Part shown: positions 9,073 to 63,789 of the stretch, piece by piece | How the letters are laid out: the number at the start of each line of letters is the position of its first letter | Numbering within the stretch: the stretch's first letter is position 1 | Source of the DNA: Citrus sinensis | Taxonomy: Eukaryota > Streptophyta > Magnoliopsida > Sapindales > Rutaceae | Assembly (NCBI RefSeq): GCF_022201045.2 | Contig: NC_068558.1 | Span: 51,067,501-51,131,500, forward strand | Direction: 5' to 3' | DNA length: 64,000 nucleotides | Notes under the pieces: generated by a model | Seen by the model: only the letters and a program-made list of their open reading frames with translations | The model's database searches: none | What the model was told of the DNA's origin: nothing | Position numbers and translations under genes: made by a program

Positions 9073-12000
9073 GTTTGGTTTGTGGGAAAATGAAGGAAAA
9101 TGCGAGAGAAAGTGTGGGAAATAAATGTGTTTCGATTCTTGTTGGTTTTATTTGAAGTTGAGGTGAGAGAAAAGAGTGCGTGAAGAATTCGAAACTCAGT
9201 TCAGTTTCAGTGTTAACAAGCTCACCTGAGTTAATACTTACTGCGCACCCTTGCAAAAGTACAAACTCCACGCGGACCACGCCCCCTTTTCTCCTCTACG
9301 GTGAAAATTTTCCAGTGCCGTGCTGTTTTTATCTTGGGATTTGTTGAAAATAACATCTTAGCCCCTATTCTTCATGTTTTCTTAACAAAAGATATAGCTT
9401 TCCTATTCTTAACCAAAAAATCCTTGATCGAGTAATAACATTTTTTTTTAAATAATTACATATATTACTAGGGTCAACAAAGACTAACAATATATTATTA
9501 TATAAATGTAAAAACAAAATCATGCTTAAGCATGATATATAAAACAATACCTAAGACTTAAGCTTAAGCTACAAACACCTAACTACAAAATAACAAAGAA
9601 TTATAAATTTAAAAACTGAAAAGATGCTAAATAGTTCCATATAATAAAATCTCATAAAGTATTAGAAAAATTTTACGGTACTAACCTAATCTACCAACCT
9701 CAATTTTTGTAAGTAAAAACCACGTATGAATTATAATAGTAACAAAACTTAAAAATGCCACAACAATAAAGAACACTTAAAAACTAAAAAAAAAAACCTT
9801 AGGCTGTTCTAATAACATGAATATGAAGAAGGTTTGACAATTTACTTTTTAATTTTGATCAAAATTTTTTATTCTAATTTTAGACTGGTAAATCAAATCG
9901 TTTTTGTTACTAAATACTAATCTTAGAGACTTAGACATATGAATCGAATTGAAATTTATAATTTGTTAAATTTCTTTTTATTTTTCATTTTTAGTTCATT
10001 TTTTTTATTCGTATCTCTTAGTCTATCTATCAATCAATAATTTGTTTTATTTAGACAAGCTACCCCTAATTTGAACAGTTACATATAATGCGAATGATAT
10101 TTTTATTAGAATAATGCTACAAATACAAAAAAGAATACAAAGTTTAGTGCAAAAGATAAAAAAGACAAGAAAAATTCTTACCGCATAATGATTTTCTTTT
10201 TCTAGTAATAGTATATTATTTTTTGTGCACATAACACTATGTTTTTGCCGTTTAAATAGAATTGGGGACCGTATTCAAAAAAAAAAAAAAGAATTGGGGA
10301 CCTATTCTACGCAATGAAAAACACTGCCTTTTAACTGTGAAATATAATAAATTGAGGTCCTTTACTCTATTTAGTATTAGTTTTTTTTTTTTAAATTATG
10401 ATTCTGTTAACTTATTCACTTCGGTAAGCGTTTTTGAAAAGAACGGGACCCAGAATTCAAAAAATTGACAGTAATGGTGGGGCCCAATTTTAGGAACGAG
10501 AAGCATGGGCCTTACAATGTGATGATGAATCACCAATGACTCCTGCACCGGCAAAGACATTCACGCACTCGCAGTGTGACCCAATAACATCATTTAGAAT
10601 TTGAATTCTTCTTCCCCGTCAATTCTCTGATCTAATTATTAAAAAAATGGTTCCACTATTCTTTCTTGGAAAATATTAAGGGTTTGGAGATGGTCATTTT
10701 CAAAAAGAAAAATGATTGTCTATATAAAATGAATCAATTTTTTTAATGGGAAGGTAAACTTGTGCAGCTGGCTGGTGTTGTTGAAAATTCTAAAAATTTC
10801 AGTGATTTTGGTACAATATGGTGCCCTACCAATCTACCACAATCAAACAGAATTTTTTTTTTTTTAAAAAAAAAAAATCTTTTGTGGAATCAAAAAATCA
10901 CTGAGTTTCAAAACACGTGAACTCTTTTTATCCTTTTCCCAGAATTTATCAATGATTGATGGTTGAAAACGAGCAACCTGCTTTCTTACCACACATGAAG
11001 CAAAGCTAATAAGCTACCACACTTTCATCAAATAACAGTACATTTTGGCTTAAGAATCTTGTTACGATACATTATAATTCATATTGTACTTACAACATAC
11101 GACAAATTAACTGAATAGTAGTGCCCAATAATTTAAATATTTAATCAACAAAATTATGTTTAAATTCATAAAATTAACTTTTAGATTTAATGTATCATGC
11201 ATTATAATATATCTTAGCTAACGCCCTATGGTTAAATAAGAGAGGCCTGCTAAAATAATAATTGGTGAGTACTTGACATTTGACAATCGTTTTGAAAATG
11301 GATGGACCCATTTCATAGCTCCACGTGAACCTTAATTAAATTTTATGCACGTTTTGGTTTCACGTAAAAAGGGGTCACTTTAAGAGACCAAGACACTAAT
11401 CCGGAAAGATCAGGCGGCAAAGGACATATTTAGTAGGGACCATGACTCGCATTGCATTATTGCAATGCCGTGGCATCACCTTAAGTTAGTAACTAAAACT
11501 ATCTTTTCTATGTGTGCTCGTGAATTAAACTTATCCAAATAATTTATGTGGTTGGCAAATAGTTTTTGAAAAAATAATAATAATAAATCGATAGACAAAC
11601 TCCGTCACTCACCCATCCCTTTCTGTTGTGTTGATGCTTATTTTCCCGTTTGCTTAGTACTTTTGTTTGTTAGTGTTTGTTTTTTTAAAAAAAAAAAAAA
11701 TTTGAAACAGCAAAACCAAGTAAATCACAAAAATGTCCAATGCTTGTTTGTTTCAACCACAATCCTAGCTTTTTTCCTTTTCCTTATCTGACTTCTCCTT
11801 GTACTGTTTATTACGATTCAAAATCTTAGCATAAAAAGATGATGGGTGTTTATCGGACTTTTGTGTGAAGAAAATCAAAATCTGATGGAGTCTCACATCC
11901 TTGCTGGATTTGCCCATTTGCACTTTGTTGAGCAGTTGAGTTGGCTTTTTTTTTCTCTCCGTCTTTTCGGCTTTTATAGTGTCCTTCCTCGTCTTTTACC

Positions 12001-12112
12001 AACTCCTATCTCCATAACATTTGTTAGAAATTTTAAGAGAAAAAATGACCATTTGATTATTATAATTCTTTTTTTTTTAATACTGTTTATACAGGATTGT
12101 AGGTATTACAAT

Positions 12113-12573
12113 TAATATTTACACACATATTCTACAATTGGGACCTTCATCGTGGCATGTACTCCTCTGAAGCGCTGCCCAAATTCTTCAAATTACACAC
12201 AGATTCTACAATTGGAACCTTCATCGTGGCATGTACTCCTCTGAAGTGCTGCCCAAATTCTTCAAACTGCATGTACTCCTCTGAAGCGCTGCCCAAATTC
12301 TTCAAATTACACACAGATTCTACAATTGGAACCTTCATCGTGGCATGTACTCCTCTGAAGTGCTGCCCAAATTCTTCAAACCCTCTCAAATATTCGAGGA
12401 TTGTCCACTCTACTCACATTTCGTGAGGAATAGACTGGCTCCACTCAATTATGTGATAATTGAGGAAGGATTGTAAATAAGCCCCATAAATACTTTTATG
12501 GAGGCTTGAACCCTTACACTCATTATTCTAAGTGCAAGGACTCTCCCACTGGACCAAAGTCCCATTGGTTGAT
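12113..12573 (-). mobile_element. tRNA-derived SINE with internal tandem amplification
   Basis: Read on the minus strand, the element begins near 12573 with a tRNA-like head: an A-box-like TGGTCCAGTGGGAGAGT and, about 35 bases on, a B-box-like GGGTTCAAGCC. It ends near 12113 in a TGTGTGTAAATATTAA tail. The 9-base duplication TATTACAAT flanks it exactly (12104-12112 and 12574-12582), the hallmark of LINE-mediated insertion. The layout recalls the plant Au-SINE family, though I cannot confirm that. Inside, a block containing GCATGTACTCCTCTGAAG occurs four times (about 12155, 12229, 12268, 12343) at spacings of 74, 39 and 75 bases, which roughly doubles the usual length. It encodes no protein; the open frames on both strands are products of the repeat. 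Confidence 0.8.
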
Positions 12574-13945
12574 TATTACAATCCAAACGGCGGTTTTGGT
12601 TCTTTTCCACGGAGGAGACAAAAACAAATGAAGCTTTGAATTTTGTAATTTAATATGTGCTTCGGGAGATGTGAGTCATATGCTCATGCACCAACAACCG
12701 AGGTTGGCGCACATTATGGTGATATTGAGTATTGACGCATATTTTTCACTTACCTCCGCGCTGGAATGAATTGACACACACTGTTTGTCGACTTGTGTCC
12801 ATTAAAAGCAGTAGCCTTTTATTGTTACGCCCACTACTACAATGAGGTCACGACTTTATTTATTTTTAAATGAATTTGGGTTAATAGTCTACTTGTTTTG
12901 TGCATTGGAAACAAAGAGAAAGCGATAAAATGCATTGACCTATTGAAGGTAGAAAAACGGAAGCAATGTAAGTGGTGGGCTGCTGCTCTCACGGATGTTA
13001 TAGCAGCAATTCCGAGTCTCGAGGGACTCGACTTTCTTCCTAAGAATGATCGAGTGGAGCCTAATTTTCTGCACAAGAATAATTGAGCGGGGCCCTTTAC
13101 AGTCTTTCTACTTTACAAAAAAATTATAAGCAGGGTAAGATATCCCTAGTGAGATTGACAATCTGTGCAATACTTCGTAGAATTTAATTTAAATGAATAT
13201 TTCTAATAAAATTATCTGATTGTAATACTACTAGTTATCTACCATATAATCTGAGTAGTATTAATATTTCCAGTAAAATAAAGACATTTCTCGAATATTA
13301 GTACTTCATAGAATTTAATATAAACTAATAGCCCTAATAAAATTGTCTGAATTTAATGTAAATTAATAGTCCTAGTAAAATTATTTAATTTTAATACTAG
13401 TAGTTGTTTGCCATAATAACTGTTGTGAATATATGATTTAATATCATATTATCTGATACAGTATTGGAAAAAAAAATGGACGTAATGGACTCATAAATCA
13501 TTGCTTGCAATTTGCAAAGTTTATAATCCACACAACTTAGATATCAGCCTTATTATCTAAATAATTGCAAATAAATTAAGTCATTTTTTGTTTTGAATGA
13601 AAATGTAACTAAATATATAAACAAATTATTCTTTTAATACTTTTTTTACATCCACCCCATCTAATAATTTATATTTATATTTTAAATTTTAATAGAAAAT
13701 TGAGAAACTTTTCAGAATCAAGAATTATGGATATTGAAATTACATAATAAGAAGAAAATAATTTAAGATTTTAGAATGAAATTTATTGACGAGCTGATTG
13801 ATTTTAATTTATGAGTTAGTATCACCTTATAAAGTAAGTTGGGGGGTATTTTTTGGAATAGAATTCAAATGGGGGTGTTAAAAGGATTGACGGGGTGTTA
13901 TAAGCTTGACTCGTTCTGTTTATAACCCGTTTCAATTCTCGAGTC

Positions 13946-14165
13946 GGCCCATAACCCAGATCGATAGTCCTTGGACCCATTGTTCGACCCATTCCGCAAA
14001 TAGCTACAATAGTAGACCAATCTTGGGCCAAACATTATATCTAGTTCGTATCGTAGATTAAAAACAAAAATAAAAGAACTATAAGGTCTTCGGTGCAATT
14101 TAAAAAAGGATAATAAAAGCCCTCGTGTCCTGCACCTCTCTTTCCTTCAATACTAGCTAGGGTTT
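13946..14165 (+). promoter_or_regulatory. RPS13 promoter elements (site II and telo-box)
   Basis: Two TGGGCY/RGCCCA site-II elements (GGCCCA at 13946-13951 and TGGGCC at 14024-14029) precede a telo-box-like TAGGGTTT at 14158-14165, just upstream of the RPS13 start. This pairing is the known signature of plant ribosomal-protein promoters, where TCP and Telo-box-binding factors link transcription to cell growth. The transcription start was not determined. Confidence 0.65.
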
Positions 14166-14241
14166 CTCTCGCCAAGGAGCAGGCAGCGTAGCAGTGGTGA
14201 CACAGAGATAGAGTGGTAGCGAGACTCTATTCTCCGCCAGC

Positions 14242-15737
<1,496 letters not shown>

Positions 15738-18700
15738 GTGAGATATATTTGGTACCACATTTGGAACTTCCAGGATCGTATCTTTGACAAGTGGCCTCAA
15801 GTTTTTTCCTTATTTATTGTTATTCCTTTTATAACGACTTTATGCGAGAAGAGTGAGCTGAATCGATTAGGGCGGAAATGACGTTTGATGTATTGGACTA
15901 GTTCATCATTTGTTCTCTCTGGATCCTTTTGTTTCTATTTTTGGTACTTTTGAAATTATGATTCTTAGATGCATAATGTTCTCGTTCTAGTGTGGGAATT
16001 TCTATGGACGCCATTGACAGGGTTTGGTTTCGCATGACCTTTCTCTGTTGGTTGGATTTTTGAAGATGGTGCTTTTGTTACAGTTGCTCTTTGGTAATCC
16101 ATGATGCGGAATTTCTATGTTTAGCTTTTGTAGTTTTGTTCGTCCTAGTTAAATAAAGATGGTCATGAGCTTGGTTATGGAGGTTGCATTGCTGCATGTG
16201 ACTCCGAAATTGCACTAGCTTGAAGGGTCTGTTTGTTATAACCTTTTTATTTTTATTTTTTATTTATTTTTCCTTCGAGTAGATCTTAAGTAGAGTTTTT
16301 AACCCAAAAAAGAAAAAAATATTAAGTTTGGTTGTGAATGAGCTTTAGCATAAAATTATTTTGATAAACAAGTTTCTAAAGTAATATTATGAGTGGGTAA
16401 AATAACGATGTGAATAAAAGAAGGTTATTGATGAGTATCAAAATTTTTAATTTAGTTTGAGGCTTTGAGCAATGACATTTTGAATAGGAAAAAAAATCAA
16501 CTGTGCGCTGTCAAGGAAAAAAAAAGTACTAATTGGCTGAGATTTCGGTGTTAATTGATTGAAAAATAATCCATTAGTGGAGTGTTAACCTTATTCCGGT
16601 GTACGGCGTTCAGTTTATGTAGTATTTTTCATTTGTTTCACACGTGACACGCCTCCCACAAGGTGCAACTCTGTTTCTTGTTATGCACGCTCAATTAAAT
16701 CCTTTTGGATATTTTTGTTATTTTTTACACAATATGGCATCTGCAAAATCCAAATTGAAATACCTGTTATTGTTATTTAAAAAATTATTGATACCAAGTG
16801 AAATTATTCATGGAGCAGAGAACGAAGACGAAGAGAGAGTTGCAGAGAGGCAAAAGAATTTTAGAAAATTTTGTTCAGGATTATTTTTTCATACTTTTAA
16901 ATTATATACAAAATCTCTGCTTATTTATTTTTTTTTTTTTTGGGTTACTTTTTAGGGCGATATTCATATTTTTAACATGTATAACTCTATTTTTTAAAAA
17001 GAAAAAATACAAAAATATTACGCTTCCAAGTTCGATTACTGTTATAGCTATTTATTATGATTTTTTTGAAAGAATTTCAGCTTTGGACACGTGGTTCGAG
17101 AGGATTAACCATTGAAGTGGAAACGCAGCGTTGTGGGCTACGGGGATTAATGGGGCGCGCGCAGGTGGGAGCCTTAGAGGAACATTTTCCCTTGCCGGCG
17201 CTAGGGGTTTTTTTTTTTACTTGTATGTGAGAAAATGATTTCCACTTCCCATAAATAGAAATATGACAACGTTTTTACAAGTTTTTAGAATCTAATGCAT
17301 ATGATATTTTAGTGGTATTTTATCTAAAATATTCTTCTCATCCCTATAAAAAACAACCTCTCTTTCTATAGAAGTTTCAACATCTTTCTACTAAATTTCA
17401 CACAAAATTTAATATTTTTTCAACAAACATATCTTAAAATGATTTAAAAATCATACCCACTTCTAGCAAGCTACATTGTTTTTTCCAATATTTATTATAA
17501 AGTTAATTTTTTGAGTTTAAATTTTATTTTGTTTACTTACAATTATATAGATACAAGTGTTGAATTTATAAGTGTTCTGTATTTTTTATTTAATGTTTTT
17601 TGTTATAAAATATGATGAAATTTATTTAAATGTACATGTAACATTTTATTTTTTGTGGGATTTATTGTGTTGATCGTTGATAAATAAATTTAGTATTAGA
17701 ATATCTGTTTCATATAATAATTTAGACTTCTCGATTTCTACATCTCTAAACAATGGTTGTTGATAAGATAAATAAAAATAAATAAAAATTTAAAATAATT
17801 TCAATCATTAATTTAGTACTCAGTAAAAACTTAACTCGGTACTGAATGTTAATCCCTTTAAATAAGTCTCGAGTGGAGAACAAAAAAAAAATTTAATAAA
17901 TTTACGACGTGTTCAATTTAAAAAATATAAAATTTCACATCTTTCTTGTGTCATTCATTAACACCATAATTAAAAAAACTAAATAAAAAATAATTACGTG
18001 AAAATACCATACAGTATGATCACTAGTCCTTCTCGACCTCCCTTGCCTCCAGTTCTGTTGACGTCCGTAGGTTTCATGGACAACAGAAACCGGTTCGATC
18101 AGAGCTCCTCATCCCTGGCTTCTTTCGCTCAGTCCAGTAGCCGGATAAAACTGACGCTCTTGGTATATAGGCTCTTGTAAGTTCAATTATAACGCTTAAC
18201 CTAATTAACTATTGTTCTTTACTCATTACTGATTACATGCACGTTTTGATGTAATAATGTATGTTCAGGAGTTGACTCTGAGAGCTTGATAAAACCGATC
18301 CTTTCTGCTGCTGAAGAAGTTTTAGGTGGACTGCTTCTGTCCTTCCAGTCCAGCATTTCTTTTTTTGAGTATAGAATATTGTTTTTTCCTTCGGTCAACT
18401 GGATTGCTTATGCTTTTGTTGGCAGTGTATGTACGTGGATCACTTCTCGTGTAGCTTGCCAACTGATGGTGAAGTAATCAGTGGGAAGATATCCTAAGAT
18501 AGTTCTTTGGCAATAGCCCTTTTACCATTATCCATGGTTTCATTATTTCTTTTCAGTCTCAAAAAAGATTAAAAAAAAAAAAATGTAAAGGAGTGTCATT
18601 GAATCTGTTGGAAATTTAGTTATTTTATGTGTTACTCCCACTTCCTGTGAGCTGATGTTGAAGTAGCTGCTAAGGATGGTATAAAGAGGGTGCATTATGT

Positions 18701-36885: not shown

Positions 36886-39800
36886 TTACATCATTTTGAT
36901 CCTTTTACTTCTTGATGTGGAATTCCTGATCCCTCTGCTAGTAACTGAATATGAAGCTGATGCTGATCGAAGATAAGGTGACTTGTCAATGTATGCATGA
37001 CGTTCATTGCTGTTCCAGTATAAAATGAGCCGATTTGTACAACAATGTGACCAGCTATCACCTAGCCAGTGTGTTTTGAAAAAAAAGGGCAAAGTGAAGG
37101 GACAAGCAAACTACAAATACACGCATGTACGCATGGATCTATTTTCATGTGAAACTGTGGCAATGACTAAATGAGCTAGTGAATTTAATATTCAAGTAGG
37201 AGAGTAGGAGACTGAGGTTTGACAAGAGAATTGAATTTTTTACCTAGTGCAAGACATAATTGGAAGGAACCTTCTGTGTACTTAGTGGTCACCTGGTTCA
37301 ACAAAACCACCTGAAAAAAAGAAGTTATGAGCAAAAAGCAGCTACAAAAGGAAACCAAAGGATGTTGCCGACCTAGAATATAACCAGGTAGTGTAAGAAC
37401 TGAATTAATGGCAATAAATTAATTTAGAAAAAAAAAATTGGTAAAGGGATAGGGATGTCAAAATAACCCGGACCCGGCCCGAACCCGGATAATCCGGGCC
37501 GGGTTGAACCCGTACCGGAGAGGGAAAAAATCCGGATCCGGAATGGGTTTTAATAACCCGGATGAATCCGGGTCCGGATCCGGGTTTGGGATAACCCGTG
37601 TATCCGGAACCCGGACCCGGATTCATTTTTATATTATTTTTAATTATATTTATTAGTAAATATAAATACAAACATTAAAAAAAAAACCTAATTCTATTTC
37701 AAAACTCACACACAAATCGCGATTTACCCAAACAAGACAAACCCTAGCTGTGCCGCCGCCGCTGCTGCTGCCTTCTGGCTTCCGCTGTCCCGCAAGCAAG
37801 TCAAACAACTCTCGGCTAGGTTCGCCGTCGTCGCAAGGTTGGGTTCAAGAAGCTTGTGAAAATTACATTTCCTTTTACTGTTGATTTTGATTTACTTGTG
37901 TGAATTTTCTGGGTTCGGTTTTCTTCTGAGAATGTTGGGGATCATTCCTCTAGCTGAGCGTCTTGGTTTTGTAACTGAGCATGTTTCCTTTGCATTTTTA
38001 CTGACGAGAGAGATTATTGCCATCAGATCAGACTCTCCAAGCTCGAATTCGCATGTTGAATATGAATTAATTAACAGAATTGATAAGTGATTTGTGTTAT
38101 GTGATTTGTGTTGTGTGATTTGTGCTATGTGATTTGTGTTGTGTACTTGTGTTATACTGCTGTGAACACCATTGATTTGTGTTGTGTACTTGTGTTATAC
38201 TGCTGTGAACACCATTTATTTGTGTTGTGTACTTGGGGTAAAATCTACTGCTGTGATTCCTGTGAACACAACTCAAAAATAGTTATAAGTGTAAGAAGAA
38301 TGGCAAGTTGATTTTATTGTATTCGGTTAATACTCTTTTAGTTATTGAATTCTGATCTTCGTACTGTTTACGGATATTAAAATTCTTACCAAATATGGCC
38401 TTTGTTTAATAAGTTCTAGCATTCTCTACAAAGCAATTAAATAGTGTATGATTTACTGTTTTCAAATTAATAAGTTTGCTTTCTTTGTTGTGTTATGTTG
38501 TTCCATTTACCAGGCTTTTGACGAGGCAATTGCTAAGTTGGATACCCTGGGTGAGGAGTCCTACAAGGATAGCACTTTGATCACCACCGTCGCATGCTTG
38601 CAGCAGTGCAGTTCCTCAATTCGTTTGATTCACCGGCGTGAGTTGCTGTTATACTTTGTTTTATGTTTGAAATGTTGCTGTTGCAGTTACAGTTAAAAAT
38701 AAATTGTTGATTGTGCTCGAAATGTTGTGCTGTTATACCATTGATTTATGCTTGAAATGTTGTTGATTGTTGGTGTTACTAGATTCGAAATTGTATATTT
38801 CAAATGTTAGAAAGTTGTTATAGTTAAAAATAAATTGTTGTTGTTAATGGATTTGTTACCGTTAATAGATTCCAAAATGTATTTTTGAAATGTTAGAACT
38901 TAGAACATTGTTACAGTAAAAAAAATAAATATAAAATGGAAGAAATTGGAGGAATGATGGGTTAGTTTAATTTGTTTTGACATAATTCTTGTAGGGTGTT
39001 AAATTCGTAATGGAAAATGAACAAAGAGTTGATTTAGATGTTTCCAAGACTGATGAAAGTGTGGGTGTGAGGGTTGGCATGGATATGGCAGCAGAAAATA
39101 ATGATACAACTGCTGAATTAGAACCTGATTCAACAACAGTAGAGCAGGGGGGTGGGAGTGGGAGTGGCCGTGGCCGTGGCCGTAGGGGTAGGGGTAATAC
39201 TACTGCTGGCGCTTCAAAAAAACGAGGCGCTGGCAGCGAAGGGAGTAGTTCAGATAGATTAGTTTCTGATGCTTGGAATCATTTTAAAAAAGTTAAGTTA
39301 GGCAAGGAAGTTCAAGCGATTTGTAATTATTGTGGGTTAGTTATGCAAGGGCATTATTCTCAGGGCACTAATCACTTGATTAATCATGCGAAACGTTGTC
39401 CTAAAAGGTCAATCAAGAATGTGCAGCAAATGCACCTTTCTTTTTCTTCTAAAGCAGATGGAACTACTGTTCTTAGTAATTGTAGTACTGAACCAAAGTG
39501 GGATATGGCAATACTGAGGGTTTTTATAGCTAGAATGATTGTAATGCATGAGCTTCCGCTATCATTTGTTGAGTATATTGGGTTTTACGAACTATTAAAG
39601 CTTCTCCAACCTTCAATTGAGACTATTAGTAGAAACACTATCAAGGCTGAAATTTTGAAACTTTACGATATTGAGAAGACTAAGGCAATGAGTGTTTTGG
39701 AAGCTTGTGACAGTAGAATTGCAGTGACTACGGATATGTGGACTGCTGGTAACCAAAAGAAAGGGTATATGGTTGTTACGGCACATTATATTGATAACTC

Positions 39801-42800
39801 GTGGGTGTTGCGAAGTCGTATTATGAGGTAATATTCTCGAGACTTTTTTTTTTTCGTTTCAACATAAATGAATGTTTGCATTATTTAATATTTTGATTAT
39901 TTTTTTACATTTTTAGGTTTATATATGTGCCGGCTCTACATAGTGGTGAAGTTATGTGCAATGAGTTGTATGAGTGTTTGATGGAGTGGAATATAGATAG
40001 GAAGTTGTCTATTGTAACTGTTGATAATTGTTCTGCAAATGAGTCCATGATTGATTTGTTGTTGGGACAATTTTCAGCTAGTTCAATGATTATGGGTGGG
40101 AAATTCCTTCACATGCGCTGCTGTGCACATATATTAAACTTGATAGTTAGAGATGGTTTATCTGTAATCCAAAAAGAAGTTGAAAAGATTAGAGAGAGTG
40201 TCCATTACTGGACAGCAACACCTTCTAGATTTGAAAATTTTGAGGCTGCCAAAAAACAATTAGGTGTTAAAGAAACTAAAAACTTAGCACTTGATTGTAA
40301 AACTAGGTGGAATTCCACTTATTTGATGCTTAGTACAGTTTTGTTGTATAAAGATGTATTTATTCGTTTAAAGGAGCGTGATAGAAATTATACATCTTTG
40401 CCTAGTGAGTTGGAGTGGAATTTTTCAAAACTTATGTGTGATTATTTGAAGAGTTTTTATAAGTTAACAGAACTTTTTTCGGGGACACGATATCCGACAT
40501 CTAATTTATTTTTTAGCAAGATTTGTGAAATTAGATTGTCAATGAATGCATGGTTACAATCACCAATTGAGGGGGTAAAAAATATGGCCACTAAGATGAT
40601 TGCGAAGTATGACAAATATTGGGATGTTATTCATGGAGTTCTTGCTGTGGGTACTTTGTTAGATCCTAGGCGTAAAATGTTGTTAATTAACTTTCTATTT
40701 CCCAAAATCTATGGAGAAAGAGCTGAATTTGAAATTGAAAGGGTGCACAAATTATTTGTTGATTTAGTGCATGAGTATGAAGTCAAATATTCATCAAATG
40801 CAAATTGGGGGGTTAATGGTTCAGCTAGTTCTGAAGGTGCTGAAGCAGATGATTCTATCATGGTAGACTTAGACTTAGATGAGATGGCTGATGAGTGGGA
40901 ATCATTTAGAAATCAGAACTCACAAAATAATCATTTCAAAACAGAATTTGAGCTTTATCTTGAGGAAAGTACTTTGCCTTCAACTAGTCAATTTGATATT
41001 TTGTCATAGTGGAAGAATAATCAAGGCAAATATCCTATACTTGCAAAGATTGCGAGAGACTTTTTGGCCATTCCTGTATCAACAGTTGCTTCCGAGTCCG
41101 CCTTTAGCATTGGAGGTAGACATTTGAGTCCTCATCGCAGTAGACTTCAGCCATCTACAGTGGAAGCGTTGGTGTGTACTCAAAATTGGTTTTGGCTTGA
41201 CCACAACCTAAAAGGTATGGAAAATTTATTTATTACATAAAATAAATTAATTTGTTATAGTATCAATTTATTACTAACTAGCTGTTTTGTTTCTTATTTT
41301 TATGATTTATTCATGTTTTTTAGATGGAATTCCAGAGGAAGCAATACTTTTTGCAGAACAACTTATTGATGAAAGTTTGATGAGTGAGTTGTGAACAACA
41401 ATGAATCAAGTAAAGAAGAATAGAAAATGATGGAGAAAAGTTTAAACTTTGGATTTGTGGTTTTTAATTTGAACTTTGAATTGAGACTTGTGTAATTGTG
41501 TTATGGATTTATATTTGTGGCCGTTTTATTACTTGAAACAACCGTTTGAATTGTAGAGTTTGCACACTAGCTGTTTGAATTGTAGAGTTTGCAGAGAGTT
41601 GATTAATTGTGATTTGTGAGCACTGGATTATTATGCCATTAATTGTGATTTGTTGTTTAAGTTTTAATTATTAAGTGCTGGGATGGCATTTGAAACATTG
41701 AGAATTTGAGATAGGTTTACAAACTTCATGTGGTAGAGATGATGTTGAAATATCGTGCAAAGTATGGACTGTATGGTTATCTTGATGATGTTGGTATGTG
41801 GTAGAGAAAAGCTTGGGGACATTCTCCAATCTTTTATGCTATGTTACAGGGGCTGTCCAGTGTGTGTAAATCTCATCTTTTTGTTTATGTTAATATTTCC
41901 TTTAGTTACATTAGTTGTGTTTTGGTTCTATCACTAATAATGAAAGTGAAATTTGAAATTTCATTATTGATCCGGGTTCAAAACCCGGAATCCGGAAACC
42001 CGGATTTTTTCGGGTTGAACCCGGACCCGGACCCAGATGGAAAAAACCGGGTTTTAATCCGGGTCCGGGAAAAAGAAAATGACGTCCGGGTCCGGAACCG
42101 GGAAGGCTAAACCCGGACCCGGACCCGGATTTTGCCATCCCTATAAAGGGATGGTAGGGGTTCAACAAAATTAACATTGCACAATCATAAATAGCCTATT
42201 ACAAAATTCAAAAGTTAAAACATTTAAGAAGATATTTAAATTGTCCTTACCGCCAAACTGAACTTTTTTGCTAAGTTCATCAACTTTAAAGCTATTCCAC
42301 TGAGCACTCGAGTTCTGAGGGCTAAGTCAACAAAACCATGGCGGAAATGGAATGCAATGCTATCGATAATAACAACCTTAACCTGTTATACAATTAATAG
42401 TCAAATAAGCAAGAAAGCTGATGCAATACATGCACAACATAATGATAAGTGATTCAACTTTAACCAATCTATACAACAAGGAGTCAATGAATATGCAGAT
42501 GAGAAATTTTATTTGCCATACTCCTAATATAAGAGCACATACATGGGGAAATCCCAGATCAGTAATTTAAACAATTCAAAAACACCATCCATGTATGCTT
42601 CTTAACCATAGTTTTAACAAGAAAATCAATAAAAGGCATAGTCTCATATAGAATAGAAAATGTGACAGGAATCAGATAACTACAATTCACAAGTAAAATG
42701 ATTTCTGGTATGTTCAAGAGCAACATATTCATGTTATACTTATACCTACATCTTTATGCTCTGAAACGAACTTGTCAAGGTAATTTATCACCGCAGATTG

Positions 42801-43982
42801 CTCTGTATAACTGCAGATGCGGAAATAGAATATATTTTCCAAAATATCTTTCGGTTGTGTTTTAACTTGGCAATCATTCCGCAAAAATCGATTATATTCC
42901 AACATGTCCTCTACACATGCCTCAGCAATTTGTAAGGCACGCTCAACCATAAAGCTACCTTCTGTATCTAAATATCAAAAGCGTTGTGTTATAGCTTACA
43001 GCTTTATGGTGAGATCAAGTGAAACAACACGAGAACCAATATTGATATCTACAAGCCTAAACACTTGCCTATGTATATTGCCTTCCCACCAAGCCCACCA
43101 AATTCTACTGGAATTTGAACATTGACTGCAAGCTGAATCCTGTAAACATAAAAAATTAAATATGATAACTTCCAAAAGAACATGCCACTTTTACAGTAGC
43201 AGAAAGTTAAAAGGACAGGAACCCTTACCCAAGCTGCGTTTTGCCAATACCAGGTACCCCGCCTGCATATATGAGCAAAAAAATAAGAAAACTAATATTT
43301 CTTAAAACAAAGCCTTTATATTAGAAGCACCAACGGGGCACAAGACGAAGAAATTAGCCCAATGCGAGAGAAGTGATAACAAACCAATTTCGGTAACTTC
43401 TCTGCAACCGATTCCACCACCCAGTATGTTATCTAGATCGGCACAAGATGTAGTAATCCTTGCCAACGACTCCTGTTCCTCCTGGAGCATGTCCCAGGCA
43501 GTCTGTGTACCTGTATGCCGCAAACATCAAACAATCTCATAGCTATTAACTAATATGCTGGAATATTTATCCAGATACAAATTAGTGTCATTTAAAGACG
43601 GCATTATTGGTAAGAAAAAAAAAAGGAGAATCAAAGAGGAAATGGATTACAATTCAGAATAGATTGACACCAGCTGTTTGATGCAACCTTTAGAATTTCA
43701 ACAGCTTCGGTCTCTGAAATTTTTAAATCTGTTTTAAGCAAAGCAGCAAGTGAATTATATATATGTTATATGAATGTAGTTCGTGTAGCAATTACAACAA
43801 ACACTTGGTATGTGAAATTCGTTATAGTACCATATAATTAAAAACTAAATTTAAAAAAAAAAAAAATTACCGCGAGATATATCAGAAGAGGAGGCCGAAC
43901 AAATTGAAGAAAGAGAAGTGTAACCTGCAGATATTAGTTTCCCTCTTTGCGTTGCTGAGATTGGTAGTTTCGAAACCTCCAT
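36886..43982 (-). CDS. RAD51C: DNA repair protein RAD51C, split by a transposon-bearing intron
   Basis: Nine exons (43982-43871, 43728-43651, 43510-43385, 43262-43229, 43139-43069, 42967-42750, 42382-42251, 37310-37244, 37061-36886) give 1,014 nt and 337 residues. It is a RAD51 paralog ATPase that acts with XRCC3 in homologous recombination and meiosis in the nucleus. Walker A is GVPGIGKT (107-114) and Walker B is VVIIDS (216-221). The C-terminus SKRIKMM matches Arabidopsis RAD51C (SKRVKMM) and resembles a nuclear signal. Intron 5 begins GC rather than GT (AG|GCAAGT). Intron 7 is 4,940 nt because it houses a 4,694-bp hAT transposon on the opposite strand; without the element and one target copy it would be about 238 nt. 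The coding frame is intact throughout. The junction after exon 2 gives a Cys codon and is the least certain. Confidence 0.93.
37466..37625. repeat. Left subterminal CCGGGT/ACCCGG array of the hAT element
   Basis: About 160 bases are packed with ACCCGG, CCGGGT and TCCGGA units in both orientations, far richer in GC and CpG than the surroundings. Clustered subterminal motifs in hAT elements bind the transposase (AAACGG in Ac); a similar role is inferred here. High CpG content also makes it a likely target of DNA methylation. Confidence 0.85.
38090..38245 (+). repeat. TTGTGTTGTGTACTTG tandem repeat inside the hAT element
   Basis: Units built from 'GATTTGTGTTGTG' and a longer 55-base unit ending CTGCTGTGAACACCATT are repeated in tandem within the element's 5' non-coding region. 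The longer unit occurs twice, followed by a partial third. It has no evident coding role. Confidence 0.7.
38514..38583 (+). pseudogene. Captured 14-3-3 exon fragment inside the hAT element
   Basis: The translation [20 protein letters not shown], followed by TLI, is the highly conserved C-terminal segment of plant 14-3-3 proteins, which normally reads AFDEAI(A/S)[16 protein letters not shown] and goes on to MQLLRDNLTLW. Here the match stops after about 23 codons. It starts directly after an AG preceded by a T-rich tract, where plant 14-3-3 genes have an intron acceptor as I recall them. The fragment was therefore probably copied from genomic DNA with its intron edge, not from mRNA. It lies in the same orientation as the transposase, about 430 bases upstream of its start. 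It is not a working gene but may be spliced into transposon transcripts. Confidence 0.85.
39010..41394 (+). pseudogene. hAT transposase gene (BED zinc finger, hATC domain) with one in-frame stop
   Basis: Three exons (39010-39827, 39917-41214, 41324-41394) keep one frame over 2,187 nt, equivalent to 728 residues plus stop. The order is an acidic N-terminus, a Gly/Arg-rich linker, and a BED zinc finger (about residues 85-140; CNYC then H and C). The RNase H-like core follows with [17 protein letters not shown] and the hAT-type [15 protein letters not shown]. The C-terminal hATC dimerisation domain ([17 protein letters not shown]) comes last. A single TAG at 41007-41009 falls just before the hATC domain, where relatives have a tryptophan (typically ...WW). 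Everything after it stays in frame with a normal intron and stop, so this copy appears disabled by one recent change or subject to read-through. As a plain DNA transposon gene it could still be mobilised by a related active copy. Confidence 0.9.
41970..42128. repeat. Right subterminal CCGGGT/ACCCGG array of the hAT element
   Basis: It mirrors the left array, with about fifteen ACCCGG/CCGGGT/TCCGG units in mixed orientation directly inside the right terminal repeat. Its density and GC-richness match the left end, which supports both as functional transposon ends. Confidence 0.85.
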
Positions 43983-56353: not shown

Positions 56354-57225
56354 GTCTGCTAAACGAATCATAAAAATCGAAATTTTAGCCCATTTCGAGT
56401 TTCCGATAACTGAAAGTGAACCATAGTATTCGTACCTTAAACGATGGAGAATAGAGATGAACAATTCACAATCGAGTTTCGTCCGAGTGAGCAGCAGAGG
56501 AAGAGGAGTGTATTTAGCTGGCGCTACTTTAAGGGAACCAGCCTTTTTCTTTTCAGTTACGGTGGACGTCGATTGGAGCCAGAGAGATTACTATTTATAC
56601 ATATGATTCAAGATCCCAGTATTAATATGCTGATGCTTAGAATTTAGAGCACTCGAGAGTTGCTGGCATCCGTGACCAAGGCGAACTAAAGGGTAATTTT
56701 GCTAATCAAGATGTTTTGGGAGTGAGAGATAATGATGACATCAATTGGCTGAGTCACTGCGCAAAATCATATCATACGAAAGTACAATCCCGTTGTGGAA
56801 ACTGACGTCACGCGCTTGAAGGTCGATAGAGTGACGTATACGCAAATGATTGGCCCTTTGTGCCAGAGGCGGCGGCAGAATCTCGTATCCCTATGCACGT
56901 CTAATTCCAATAGTGCAAGCAAGCAACGTAGAGCTTTGTCGGTTTTTAACCCTTGGGCTTGAATTTCTATTATTGCCTTCTGGGCCGTGAAGCGGTATAC
57001 GCACCCTCTCATCAGTCCCTACTGAGATAACCCCGTTCATTAAACATTGGGTGGGCAGTCAATCAATTGGATCTATTTTTTTTTTTTAAATATTAAACAC
57101 ACGGCAATCAGCGGACTCCAGATATATTGGAAATTATATTCCTCACCGGCCCGCACCGTCAAAGTTCAAAAAGTCTAGAAGAACTGAATTGACAGCATAG
57201 CACTAGCACTAACAGGTAATAAAAG
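56354..57225. other. Divergent promoter region, arginase and SagB-like gene
   Basis: A head-to-head intergenic region of 872 bases. TGGGCT/TGGGCC site-II-like motifs occur at about 56956 and 56983. The left part includes the arginase leader. No other gene is seen. Confidence 0.55.
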
Positions 57226-60200
57226 ATGCCACACCTTTCAACAAGTTTCTACTCTCGTCCTCCTAACGCTAACCGGTTCCATTTAAACTTACGTCCTTCG
57301 ACCTCCGTGCTCCGCCTCCCTAACAGAAAATTAATACCCGCTATGTCCTTCTCTTCATCCTCAGCATCAAAAATGAATACAAGGCAAGTAAAAAACCCAG
57401 GAACCACAGACCCTCGAAAGCTCTCACATGTTCTAAAATACCATGACCAAACCAAGCATTCGTTCACCAAATACGCACGTGGCCCTCACGGACTAGACTG
57501 GGCCAATCAACCCAACCCATTTCGCCGTTACATCTCTGCTCCTCTCCTCCCTCTCATGCACCTCCCCAATCGCACTGACCATCGAACCCAAACTCCGTCG
57601 TCTCTGAGTAATTACAATCACGATAATGCCCCTCTGTACTCTTCTCTATTCACATCTCTTCCTCCTCCGCAACCCCTCACTGTTTCCTCAATTTCTCAGC
57701 TCTTTTACGATTCCTTAGCTCTCTCCGCTTGGAAAACAACTGGATACTCCACGTGGTCTCTTCGGGTCAACCCCAGCAGCGGCAATTTACATCCCACTGA
57801 GGCTTACATAATCGCCCCGGCTATTGAACCCCTCTGTGACTCGCCGTTTGTTGCTCATTACGCGCCAAAAGAGCATGCTTTGGAACTTAGAGCTAAAATC
57901 CCATCTCGGTTTGATCTTTTCAACAATTTCTTTCCAAAAAACTCGTTTCTTGTAGGATTTTCTTCCATTTTCTGGCGGGAGGCCTGGAAATATGGTGAGC
58001 GCGCGTTTAGGTATTGTAATCATGACGTGGGTCACGCTATTGCGGCGGTTGCCATGGCTGCAGCTGAGCTTGGTTGGGATGTAAAGATTCTAGAGGGTAT
58101 GGGATACAAAGAATTGAAGAAATTAATGGGGCTTGATATTTTCCCGGAGTTTGTTATTCCATCAAAACCCATTAAAGGGAAGATTCCAGAGATTGAATTC
58201 GAGCACCCGGATTGTGTTCTTGTTGTTTTTCCATCTGGGGCCACTGGATTTGATGTGAATTATGAGAAATTGAGATTGTTAATGGAGGAGTTTTCGGCTT
58301 TGGACTGGAAAGGAAAGCCCAACTTGTTAAGTAAAGAGCATTTTTGCTGGGATATTATTTATAGTACTGCTGAAGTAGTTAAGAAACCATTAACAATCAG
58401 AAATGCATTTTCAGTTGATCCATTCTCTAGCAGTGGGGTTTGCAGTGAGAGTTCCTATAAGGGATTTACAGTCAGAGAAGTTGTAAGGAAGAGGAGGAGT
58501 GCAGTTGATATGGATGGAGTGACTGCAATTGATAGAGAAACATTTTATCAAATAATGTTGCATTGTCTTCCTTCCGGTTCTAGAAGCAGAGAGAAGCAGA
58601 AAAGGCAATTAGCATTGCCATACCGGGTTCTTTCCTGGGATGCCGAGGTGCATGCTGCTTTGTTTATTCATAGGGTGAAAGGCTTGCCAAAGGGCTTGTA
58701 TTTCTTGGTAAGGAATGAGGATCATTTGGGGGAGTTAAAGAAGGCTGTGAGGTCTGGCTTCGTGTGGGAGAAACCAGAGGGGTGTCCTCGGGATCTACCT
58801 TTATATGAACTTGCTAGGGGTGACTGTCAGCAACTCGCCAAAGGGCTTTCGTGCCATCAGGTTTGCCTGTTCTTTTCATGATTCTGTTTCTCTTATTGTG
58901 ATTGATAGCTTGTGTTAGTGAAAATCAAGAAAATGTGCAATTTGTGGCGGTGATTTATCTAAACAGTTGAGATGCTTGACCATATGTTGTCAGTCCTGAG
59001 CATAAAGTTTGAAAAAACTATTAAAGACAACATTACAGATGGAGACGAAATTGAAAATGCCTCGACCTAGTTCCAACAGTGAAAAGGTTGATGAGTTTAG
59101 ATTGTGAAATTCTAATTTATTGTGGTTCAGTTGCATTAATTAAAGATGCTCTGCTGGTTCAGTTCTTGCATTGACTTTTCACACGAAACAACCGTCCACT
59201 GTTTATTAACCGTAAAAAACATGTTCCAACAAGCTCTAAGCATGAAAAATGCTAACTGGAGTAAGTGGTAAAAGAAAGACAGATTCTAAATGAATTTTCC
59301 ATCATCTGCTGCCCACGAATTATTATATCAGAAATTCCACATTGGTTAACTGAGACCAATAGTTATGCACCATGCCTAGAAGAATAAATAATCTCTCACT
59401 TTCTCTCTGTAGTTGAAAAACCAGAGATAGCAAATGGATTAAATTGTCAAAATTTCTATGGCCATCTAAACTATTGTATCCTTAAATTAAATGCAGGACA
59501 TTGCTGGTGATGGTTGCTTTAGCCTTGGTATGGTGGCTCATTTTGAGCCTACATTGAGTAACAAGAATGTTTGGATGTATCCACGATTGTTTTGGGAGAC
59601 TGGAGTTCTTGGTCAGGTGTTGTACCTTGAGGCACATGCTGTTGGCATATCTGCAACTGGAATTGGTTGCTTCTTTGATGATCCTGGTATGTTGACTTCC
59701 ACTCTTCTCTAAGTTGTGAATATTTATGCATGAATCTTTAGAATCCCTAGGAAATATGTTTCTATTTCTTCTTTCGAATATCTTATGGAGTGTGCATGAT
59801 AACTTGATGAATAAGAATAACTGAATTCCAGGAAGCATTTATCAGATTGCAAAACCTTAAAATCTAGCAACAATGCAATAGGTCCCAAAAGAGACTATTA
59901 TTATTAATATGATTACAGAGCTAAAGGATTCAGCTGGTGGAATGAAACCCTTCACCAAGTGAAGAGTTTTAAGTATTGCTTCATAGTTTAATTTTCCTCT
60001 ATGTTAGTCCTGTTTATGTGTTGTTTTTAAACATGAAAATTGATAAGTCTTTTAAATCAATTGTCATAGCAAAATGGCTCTATTCATTAGATGGGAATAT
60101 TGTTGTTTTTATTATGATATAAGGCAAGCATCTTCAATAGTTGTTCAAGCCATCATGGTTTCATTTCTTGTGTTTTACCCTCTAACAAGTGTAATCTTGA

Positions 60201-62840: not shown

Positions 62841-63789
62841 AGAGTAATTTTTAATTGAGTCCTTATTATTTGTAGAACAAAATTTAGAGACTATAAATTT
62901 ATAAAATGAATCAATTAAATCCTTTCAAGTATAAATTTATGTCATTCAAGTCTTTAATTTAATTACTTCATTAAAAATGTTAACAACATTGAGGACATTT
63001 TAGTAAAAAAATAATTGAGCGCCTCCTTATTTTTTTTTTTTTGGATTGGTGGTAATAGTTAAACTAAACTCAAATAACCTAAGTTAATATTTTTTGAAAA
63101 AATACTAAATTAATGTTACAAAAACTACCACATTGTTCGTGTCAGAGGAGAGATTGAGGGAACGTGCATTACACCAAAAAAAACAATTGTATAAATCTAC
63201 CATGAATTTAACTAAACCTTTGTTAGCATTGGTTAAATTCAAGTATTGGGGAGAACCTAAGTTTAAAGGTTAGTAATTCTTTTTTTAGGTGATTTTTGTA
63301 TGTATTTTATGGTAAAATTGTTCCCATGTTTAATGATATTGTGTAAGATTAGGTTTCTCAAGTCTAATTTTTCAAATGATAAACTATGTTTAATTATTGG
63401 TGAGATTTTTTTTAAAAAAAATTGAATGTTGTATTCTGTCAATGTACTTCTTTTAATTTGCTATTTAGTTAATAAAAATTGACCAAAGATTTTGTTTTTC
63501 TTTTAGAGTTTTGTTTCTTGTTACTCAAATTAATAAATAGCAGTTAGACTAAAAAAAATTAATGACTAAGGGTAAAATTATACTTTGAATCATTAATATG
63601 ATATATAAGAGTATAACTGTCTTTTTATGTTTAAGTTAAAATTTTCACTTACTTTTTTAACGGAAGAATCAAGCAAAGGACTTGAATGGCGTAAATTTAT
63701 ATTAGAAAGGATTTAGTTGATTCATTTTATAAACTTCTAGTCTCATAATTTTTTTCTACAAATAATAAGGACTCAATTGACAATTACCC
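62841..63789. mobile_element. Non-coding element with long terminal inverted repeats
   Basis: The left arm (about 62841-62985) and right arm (about 63655-63789) are reverse complements over some 110-140 bases. They share AATTGAGTCCTTATTATTTG, TTTATAAAATGAATCAA and CATTCAAGTC, and differ at perhaps one base in eight. The core of about 670 bases has no coding capacity. TTTAAACAAA occurs at 62828-62837 and again at 63790-63799, a likely target duplication, although three bases separate the left copy from the arm. Length of arms and duplication size suggest a Mutator-like non-autonomous element. Several diverged arm positions point to an older insertion than the hAT element. Confidence 0.65.

Follow-up and report, generated by a model that had tools for sequence, protein, structure and literature searches.

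The stretch of DNA analysed here (the window) comprises 64,000 nucleotides of Citrus sinensis (C3:51067501-51131500 in an assembly of 299.7 Mb and 11 contigs, which was used for all genome searches), and contains a RAD51C gene on the minus strand with an Ac-like hAT DNA transposon in its seventh intron. RAD51C was modelled with nine exons and is apparently complete, and the joined protein of 304 aa had RAD51C structures as its best PDB matches (8gj8 and 8faz, 1e-66). Exons 8 and 9 of this model were adjusted by eye, which leaves intron 7 unaffected, and the short N-terminal part may lack sequence. The donor of exon 5 reads GC (GCAAGT, 43063-43068), not GT. The features around the insertion are the following:

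36886-37061, minus strand: RAD51C exon 9, with the stop codon
37244-37310, minus strand: RAD51C exon 8, acceptor TTTCAG, low end placed by eye
37442-37449, no strand: left target site duplication TAAAGGGA, 8 bp, exact (8/8)
37450-37464, plus strand: left terminal inverted repeat TAGGGATGTCAAAAT
37460-37625, no strand: left CpG-rich subterminal repeats of the CCGGACCCGG type
41970-42130, no strand: right CpG-rich subterminal repeats
42129-42143, minus strand: right terminal inverted repeat, reversed TAGGGATGGCAAAAT, 14/15 against the left end
42144-42151, no strand: right target site duplication TAAAGGGA, 8 bp, exact (8/8)
42251-42382, minus strand: RAD51C exon 7, donor GTAAGG

The element occupies positions 37450-42143. 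A sequence-only reading of this locus had described exact 8-bp duplications, terminal repeats matching at 14 of 15 positions and a length of 4,694 bp, and each of these was found again. Its placement of an Ac-like hAT antisense in RAD51C intron 7 was borne out by the agreement of the duplication, the ends, the transposase domains and the RAD51C exon model. Ac-type ends and an 8-bp duplication are also features of maize Ac. The window was scanned for pairs of 15-nt terminal repeats lying 200-8000 bp apart with flanks identical at 8/8 positions. In 20 first-order Markov sequences of the length of the window, no pair reached 14/15 and seven reached at least 12/15. In the window itself the scan returned the element pair and five further pairs at 14/15, the flanks of which were AT-only or nearly so: three within an AT microsatellite, one at 11166/17514 and one at 62906/63725. 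The similarity of the 11166-17514 pair (8/8 flanks GTTTAAAT) ends after about 16 bp, and this pair is possibly a product of chance in AT-rich DNA. The stretch at 62906-63725 (about 820 bp) resembles a miniature inverted-repeat transposable element (MITE); its terminal inverted repeats are long and imperfect, and its flanks TTTATAAA are weak as a duplication because they are palindromic. The CpG-dense cargo proposed from the letters was not confirmed, as the CpG richness of the element is limited to its two ends. The outer 370 bp hold 35 of its 102 CpGs (18 in the left 190 bp and 17 in the right 180 bp), and the interior has a CpG observed/expected ratio of 0.55, against 0.56 over the whole window.

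The growth of intron 7 to 4.9 kb from about 238 nt was reproduced: the intron measures 4,940 nt, and 238 nt after subtraction of the element and one duplication. The insertion might alter RAD51C through poor splicing of intron 7, or through antisense transcription from a transposase promoter, given that the element lies antisense and that the intron has become 20-fold longer. This effect was judged unlikely, as the splice signals adjoining exons 7 and 8 have a normal appearance, and intron sequence is left beyond the duplications on both sides (99 nt on the exon 7 side and 131 nt on the exon 8 side). The reading frame and the splice signals flanking intron 7 look intact, and there is thus no sign of damage. 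The most probable outcome is that RAD51C transcripts continue to be spliced over the longer intron and that the gene is affected little or not at all; pending RNA data the insertion is an ordinary intronic one. When an empty site was sought within the same assembly, the 3' flank of RAD51C gave a single match and no second allele.

The element carries a transposase gene on the plus strand, with these parts:

39010-39827, plus strand: transposase exon 1, BED zinc finger at about 39265-39396
39917-41214, plus strand: transposase exon 2, hAT RNase-H domain at about 40479-40778 and dimerisation domain at about 41010-41192
41007-41009, plus strand: in-frame stop of the window copy
41324-41394, plus strand: transposase exon 3, with the final stop

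The three exons amount to 729 codons including the final stop, and matched PF02892 (BED, 3e-6), PF14372 (hAT RNase-H-like, 1e-27) and PF05699 (dimerisation, 6e-26). With these three domains, the 8-bp duplication and the short terminal inverted repeats, the element belongs to the hAT superfamily. The sequence-only reading had called it nearly whole, a description that conceals the in-frame stop at 41007-41009. Since this stop lies ahead of the dimerisation domain, the window copy is probably not autonomous.

The sequence upstream of the transposase is a patchwork of host DNA, 95-97% identical to its sources, which the sequence-only reading did not recognise. It is made up as follows:

37843-37998 (element 394-549), plus strand: piece of a CAX-like locus, 156 bp, 152/156 against C6:14761834-14761989
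37994-38074 (element 545-625), plus strand: C9 piece of unnamed source, 81 bp, 80/84 against C9:33822022-33822105
38075-38270, plus strand: tandem-repeat-rich sequence between captures
38271-38583 (element 822-1134), plus strand, sense: 14-3-3 piece, intron and exon, 313 bp, 304/321 against C5:31800842-31801162
38584-38637, plus strand: remainder of the leader exon of uncaptured type, up to a conserved GT (38638-38639) that is a predicted splice donor

The CAX-like and C9 pieces overlap by 5 nt. The 14-3-3 piece includes the acceptor of its source and 70 bp of exon (38514-38583), and the source locus is a gene with PF00244 (2e-60). All three source loci resemble the element over the captured stretch only.

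The genome searches from which related copies were collected scored 40 candidates out of 832 in one case and 40 out of 78 in the other, so the family counts are lower bounds. Matching ends together with an exact 8/8 duplication were seen at 15 of the 38 family loci, and good ends with a duplication at 7/8 at four others (L034, L035, L036 and L056); for L037, L045 and L046 the duplications called were doubtful or spurious and were set aside. Judging by position, L005/L049, L006/L048 and L039/L040 are probably the halves of split elements. For the layout of captures, 33 of the 38 loci were examined (all except L040, L042, L045, L050 and L051). The CAX-like piece was present in 16 of these, the C9 piece in 9 and the 14-3-3 piece in 13 (six loci with about 313 bp, five with about 100 bp and two with 29 bp), and in the same leader slot five loci carried a C7 piece and two a UPF3 piece. 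None of the five captures was found in L032, L034, L035, L037 and L038. A longer part of the CAX-like locus, 631 bp (610/631), is present in L056, a 1,565-bp copy that lacks the transposase; the 156 bp in the window copy are therefore probably a remnant. The UPF3 source gene carries PF03467, and the UPF3 piece of L004 matches it at 437/442 positions, where the only difference is a 5-nt gap, and at a further 78/78, so that none of the 515 aligned bases is substituted. The filler of about 260 bp in L058/L059 matches 11 places, so that no single source can be named, and for the distant copy L043 the matches to the 5' region were a mixture of repeats and element sequence, with no clear host source.

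An uninterrupted transposase frame was found in 4 of 23 copies (the window copy and 22 others), namely L004, L007, L008 and L030, all of which hold captured host pieces. The other 19, including the window copy, have early stops, frameshifts or both. A 1,141-bp insert in the transposase exon of L033 (L033:1839-2979) was considered as a capture and rejected, being a repeat with at least 40 matches (40 of 2,571 candidates scored). This repeat resembles a solo long terminal repeat, and some of its matches are paired 8-9 kb apart.

On the transposase tree the capture-bearing copies were split from L032 and more distant copies with a support of 1.000, and nodes within the capture-bearing copies were partly weak. 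Five capture-free copies, a set that leaves out L041-L046, were placed outside the capture-bearing group, and L041-L046 lie further out. The K80 distance was 0.016 between the window copy and L002, at most 0.0055 among L007, L008, L030 and L031, and about 0.007 between L004 and that group. Over their whole length L007 and L008 show 99.6% identity, and their duplications differ. The architecture and the tree suggest that the CAX-like and 14-3-3 pieces were probably captured first, the C7 piece later and the UPF3 piece last, replacing most of the slot.

Nine capture junctions were examined. Overlaps were present at four of them, three in the window copy (5, 5 and 4 nt) and one in L007 (3 nt), the shared sequences being GTTCA, ATTTT, ATCA and TCA. 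Other junctions contain fillers, and in L004 at least 19 nt of UPF3 are repeated where the UPF3 piece begins. Taken together, the microhomology, the fillers and this templated repeat are in keeping with repair by copying and switching between templates. Introns are present in both the 14-3-3 and the UPF3 captures, which shows that DNA, and not spliced mRNA, was copied. Repair errors have been suggested as the origin of capture in the part of the maize literature drawn on here (PMC3260210). Cut-and-paste insertion into RAD51C intron 7 produced the 8-bp duplication of the window copy. In the mechanism proposed for the captures, a break inside or at an element, for example after excision, would be repaired by copying short stretches of other loci with switching of templates, and the leader would thereby be patched with host DNA, repeatedly within the family. 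Changes elsewhere would be likely to damage the ends or the transposase, so that copies patched in the leader may survive and spread. The reading preferred here, with a probability of roughly 0.87, is that the element in RAD51C intron 7 is an Ac-like hAT belonging to a family in which host DNA has repeatedly patched the leader of the transposase, most likely through break repair.

Several observations weigh against this reading. The CAX label depends on weak Na_Ca_ex matches (0.003 and 0.0002), which are below the cut-off and lie outside the captured stretch; no Na_Ca_ex match was obtained in the captured stretch itself, and the CAX motif there is a putative one. Two of the five source loci are without gene identification. 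Five of the nine junctions have no clear microhomology: two are 1-nt overlaps in L004 (as expected by chance), fillers of 5 and 14 nt occupy two others, and one is ambiguous. L005 and L006 count as capture-bearing solely through their presumed 5' halves, L049 and L048. The three named gene pieces (CAX-like, 14-3-3 and UPF3) are all in sense with the transposase, possibly by chance (1 in 4 for all alike). Finally, the acceptor of the CAX locus is altered in all 13 readable element copies (14 looked at).

The role of the captured pieces in the leader is a separate matter, and two explanations that agree on the identity of the element differ on it. In capture-free L047 and L032 the stretch corresponding to the slot reads as continuous leader exon, and the idea that the slot is a leader intron was dropped for this reason. 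The captured host exons and splice sites might nevertheless form new leader exons and introns of the transposase gene, with host DNA giving working splice signals. The common sense orientation of the named pieces would fit this, as would the 14-3-3 acceptor, exact in 11/11 loci carrying it, the UPF3 piece, in both copies of which an entire intron is retained together with its donor and acceptor, and the retention of the leader exon donor and the last acceptor. The altered CAX-locus acceptor speaks against it, as does the single exon of the uncaptured leader, which the captures interrupt rather than filling an intron, and the proposal is a tentative and somewhat doubtful one. As divergence is low, the conservation of splice sites is uninformative, and the alternative of an ordinary hAT insertion with functionless host pieces, kept as passive filler because nothing selects against them, has about an even chance of being correct. 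Maize Ds elements likewise hold filler with occasional gene pieces, according to the portion of PMC3260210 drawn on. The replacement of pieces in one slot and the open frame in four capture-bearing copies limit this alternative. A more far-reaching interpretation, in which the leader acts as an exon-trapping slot where host exon-intron pieces swap, give splice sites and persist beside an open transposase frame, so that a potentially autonomous element rewires its 5' region (14-3-3, UPF3), is improbable on present evidence.

Two further features of the window are an open frame of 552 aa at 57223-58881 on the plus strand, with a modest Nitroreductase match (PF00881, 4e-8), and nested tandem repeats at 12119-12381 (40, 74 and 114 bp, with 95-100% similarity).

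Gene capture by hATs that retain their transposase has been described for Hatvine-6 of grapevine, which, in the available part of PMC2528002, has a common transposase coding sequence and ends together with a variable region made up of introns and exons of genes, found in one copy only or shared by a few. The citrus family is of this kind, a transposase-bearing transduplicating hAT in which transposase and ends are shared and a host-derived region varies. Unlike Hatvine-6 as described there, the citrus captures were mapped copy by copy in one leader slot, including copies with uninterrupted frames. Pack-TYPE elements, including Pack-hAT, also carry host gene fragments between hAT ends that move with the element, and the citrus copies contain such coding fragments (the 14-3-3 exon, and UPF3 exons in L004). 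In the sections of PMC8903248 consulted, however, Pack-TYPE elements are non-autonomous by definition and have no transposase match, whereas transposase domains are present in the citrus element; the pipeline described there sets apart as autonomous, ahead of any search for captures, every element that matches a transposase. The maize elements Ds2 and Ds-l4 share with the citrus element the hAT superfamily, a captured exon and intron, capture from DNA and a repair model, but are non-autonomous Ds elements, whereas the citrus element retains a transposase gene, and the subterminal repeats are AAACGG in Ac/Ds and CCGGACCCGG in citrus (PMC3260210, in part). A link to the MITE of citrus CitRKD1 was dropped, as that MITE makes a 3-bp duplication in the passage concerned (PMC6090715). 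The main text of a 2026 review of gene capture (PMC13317346) does not contain the term 'hAT', and that of a 2024 comparison of citrus transposable elements (PMC11397423) does not contain 'captur', 'gene fragment' or 'transduplication'. Among the matches listed, from partial coverage of the literature, no title or abstract opening concerned this citrus hAT family, and CiHAT1, a name for a citrus hAT, did not occur among them.

By definition, work on Pack-TYPE capture deals with elements that lack a working transposase, going by those sections of PMC8903248. The citrus family has received pieces of five host loci in one slot, some of its frames are open, and one capture is recent, with no substitutions in the aligned bases, which together make gene capture by hATs directly testable. 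If the leader did act as an exon trap, those of its transcripts that have sequence in common with UPF3, which is a nonsense-mediated-decay gene, could also affect UPF3 through small RNAs.

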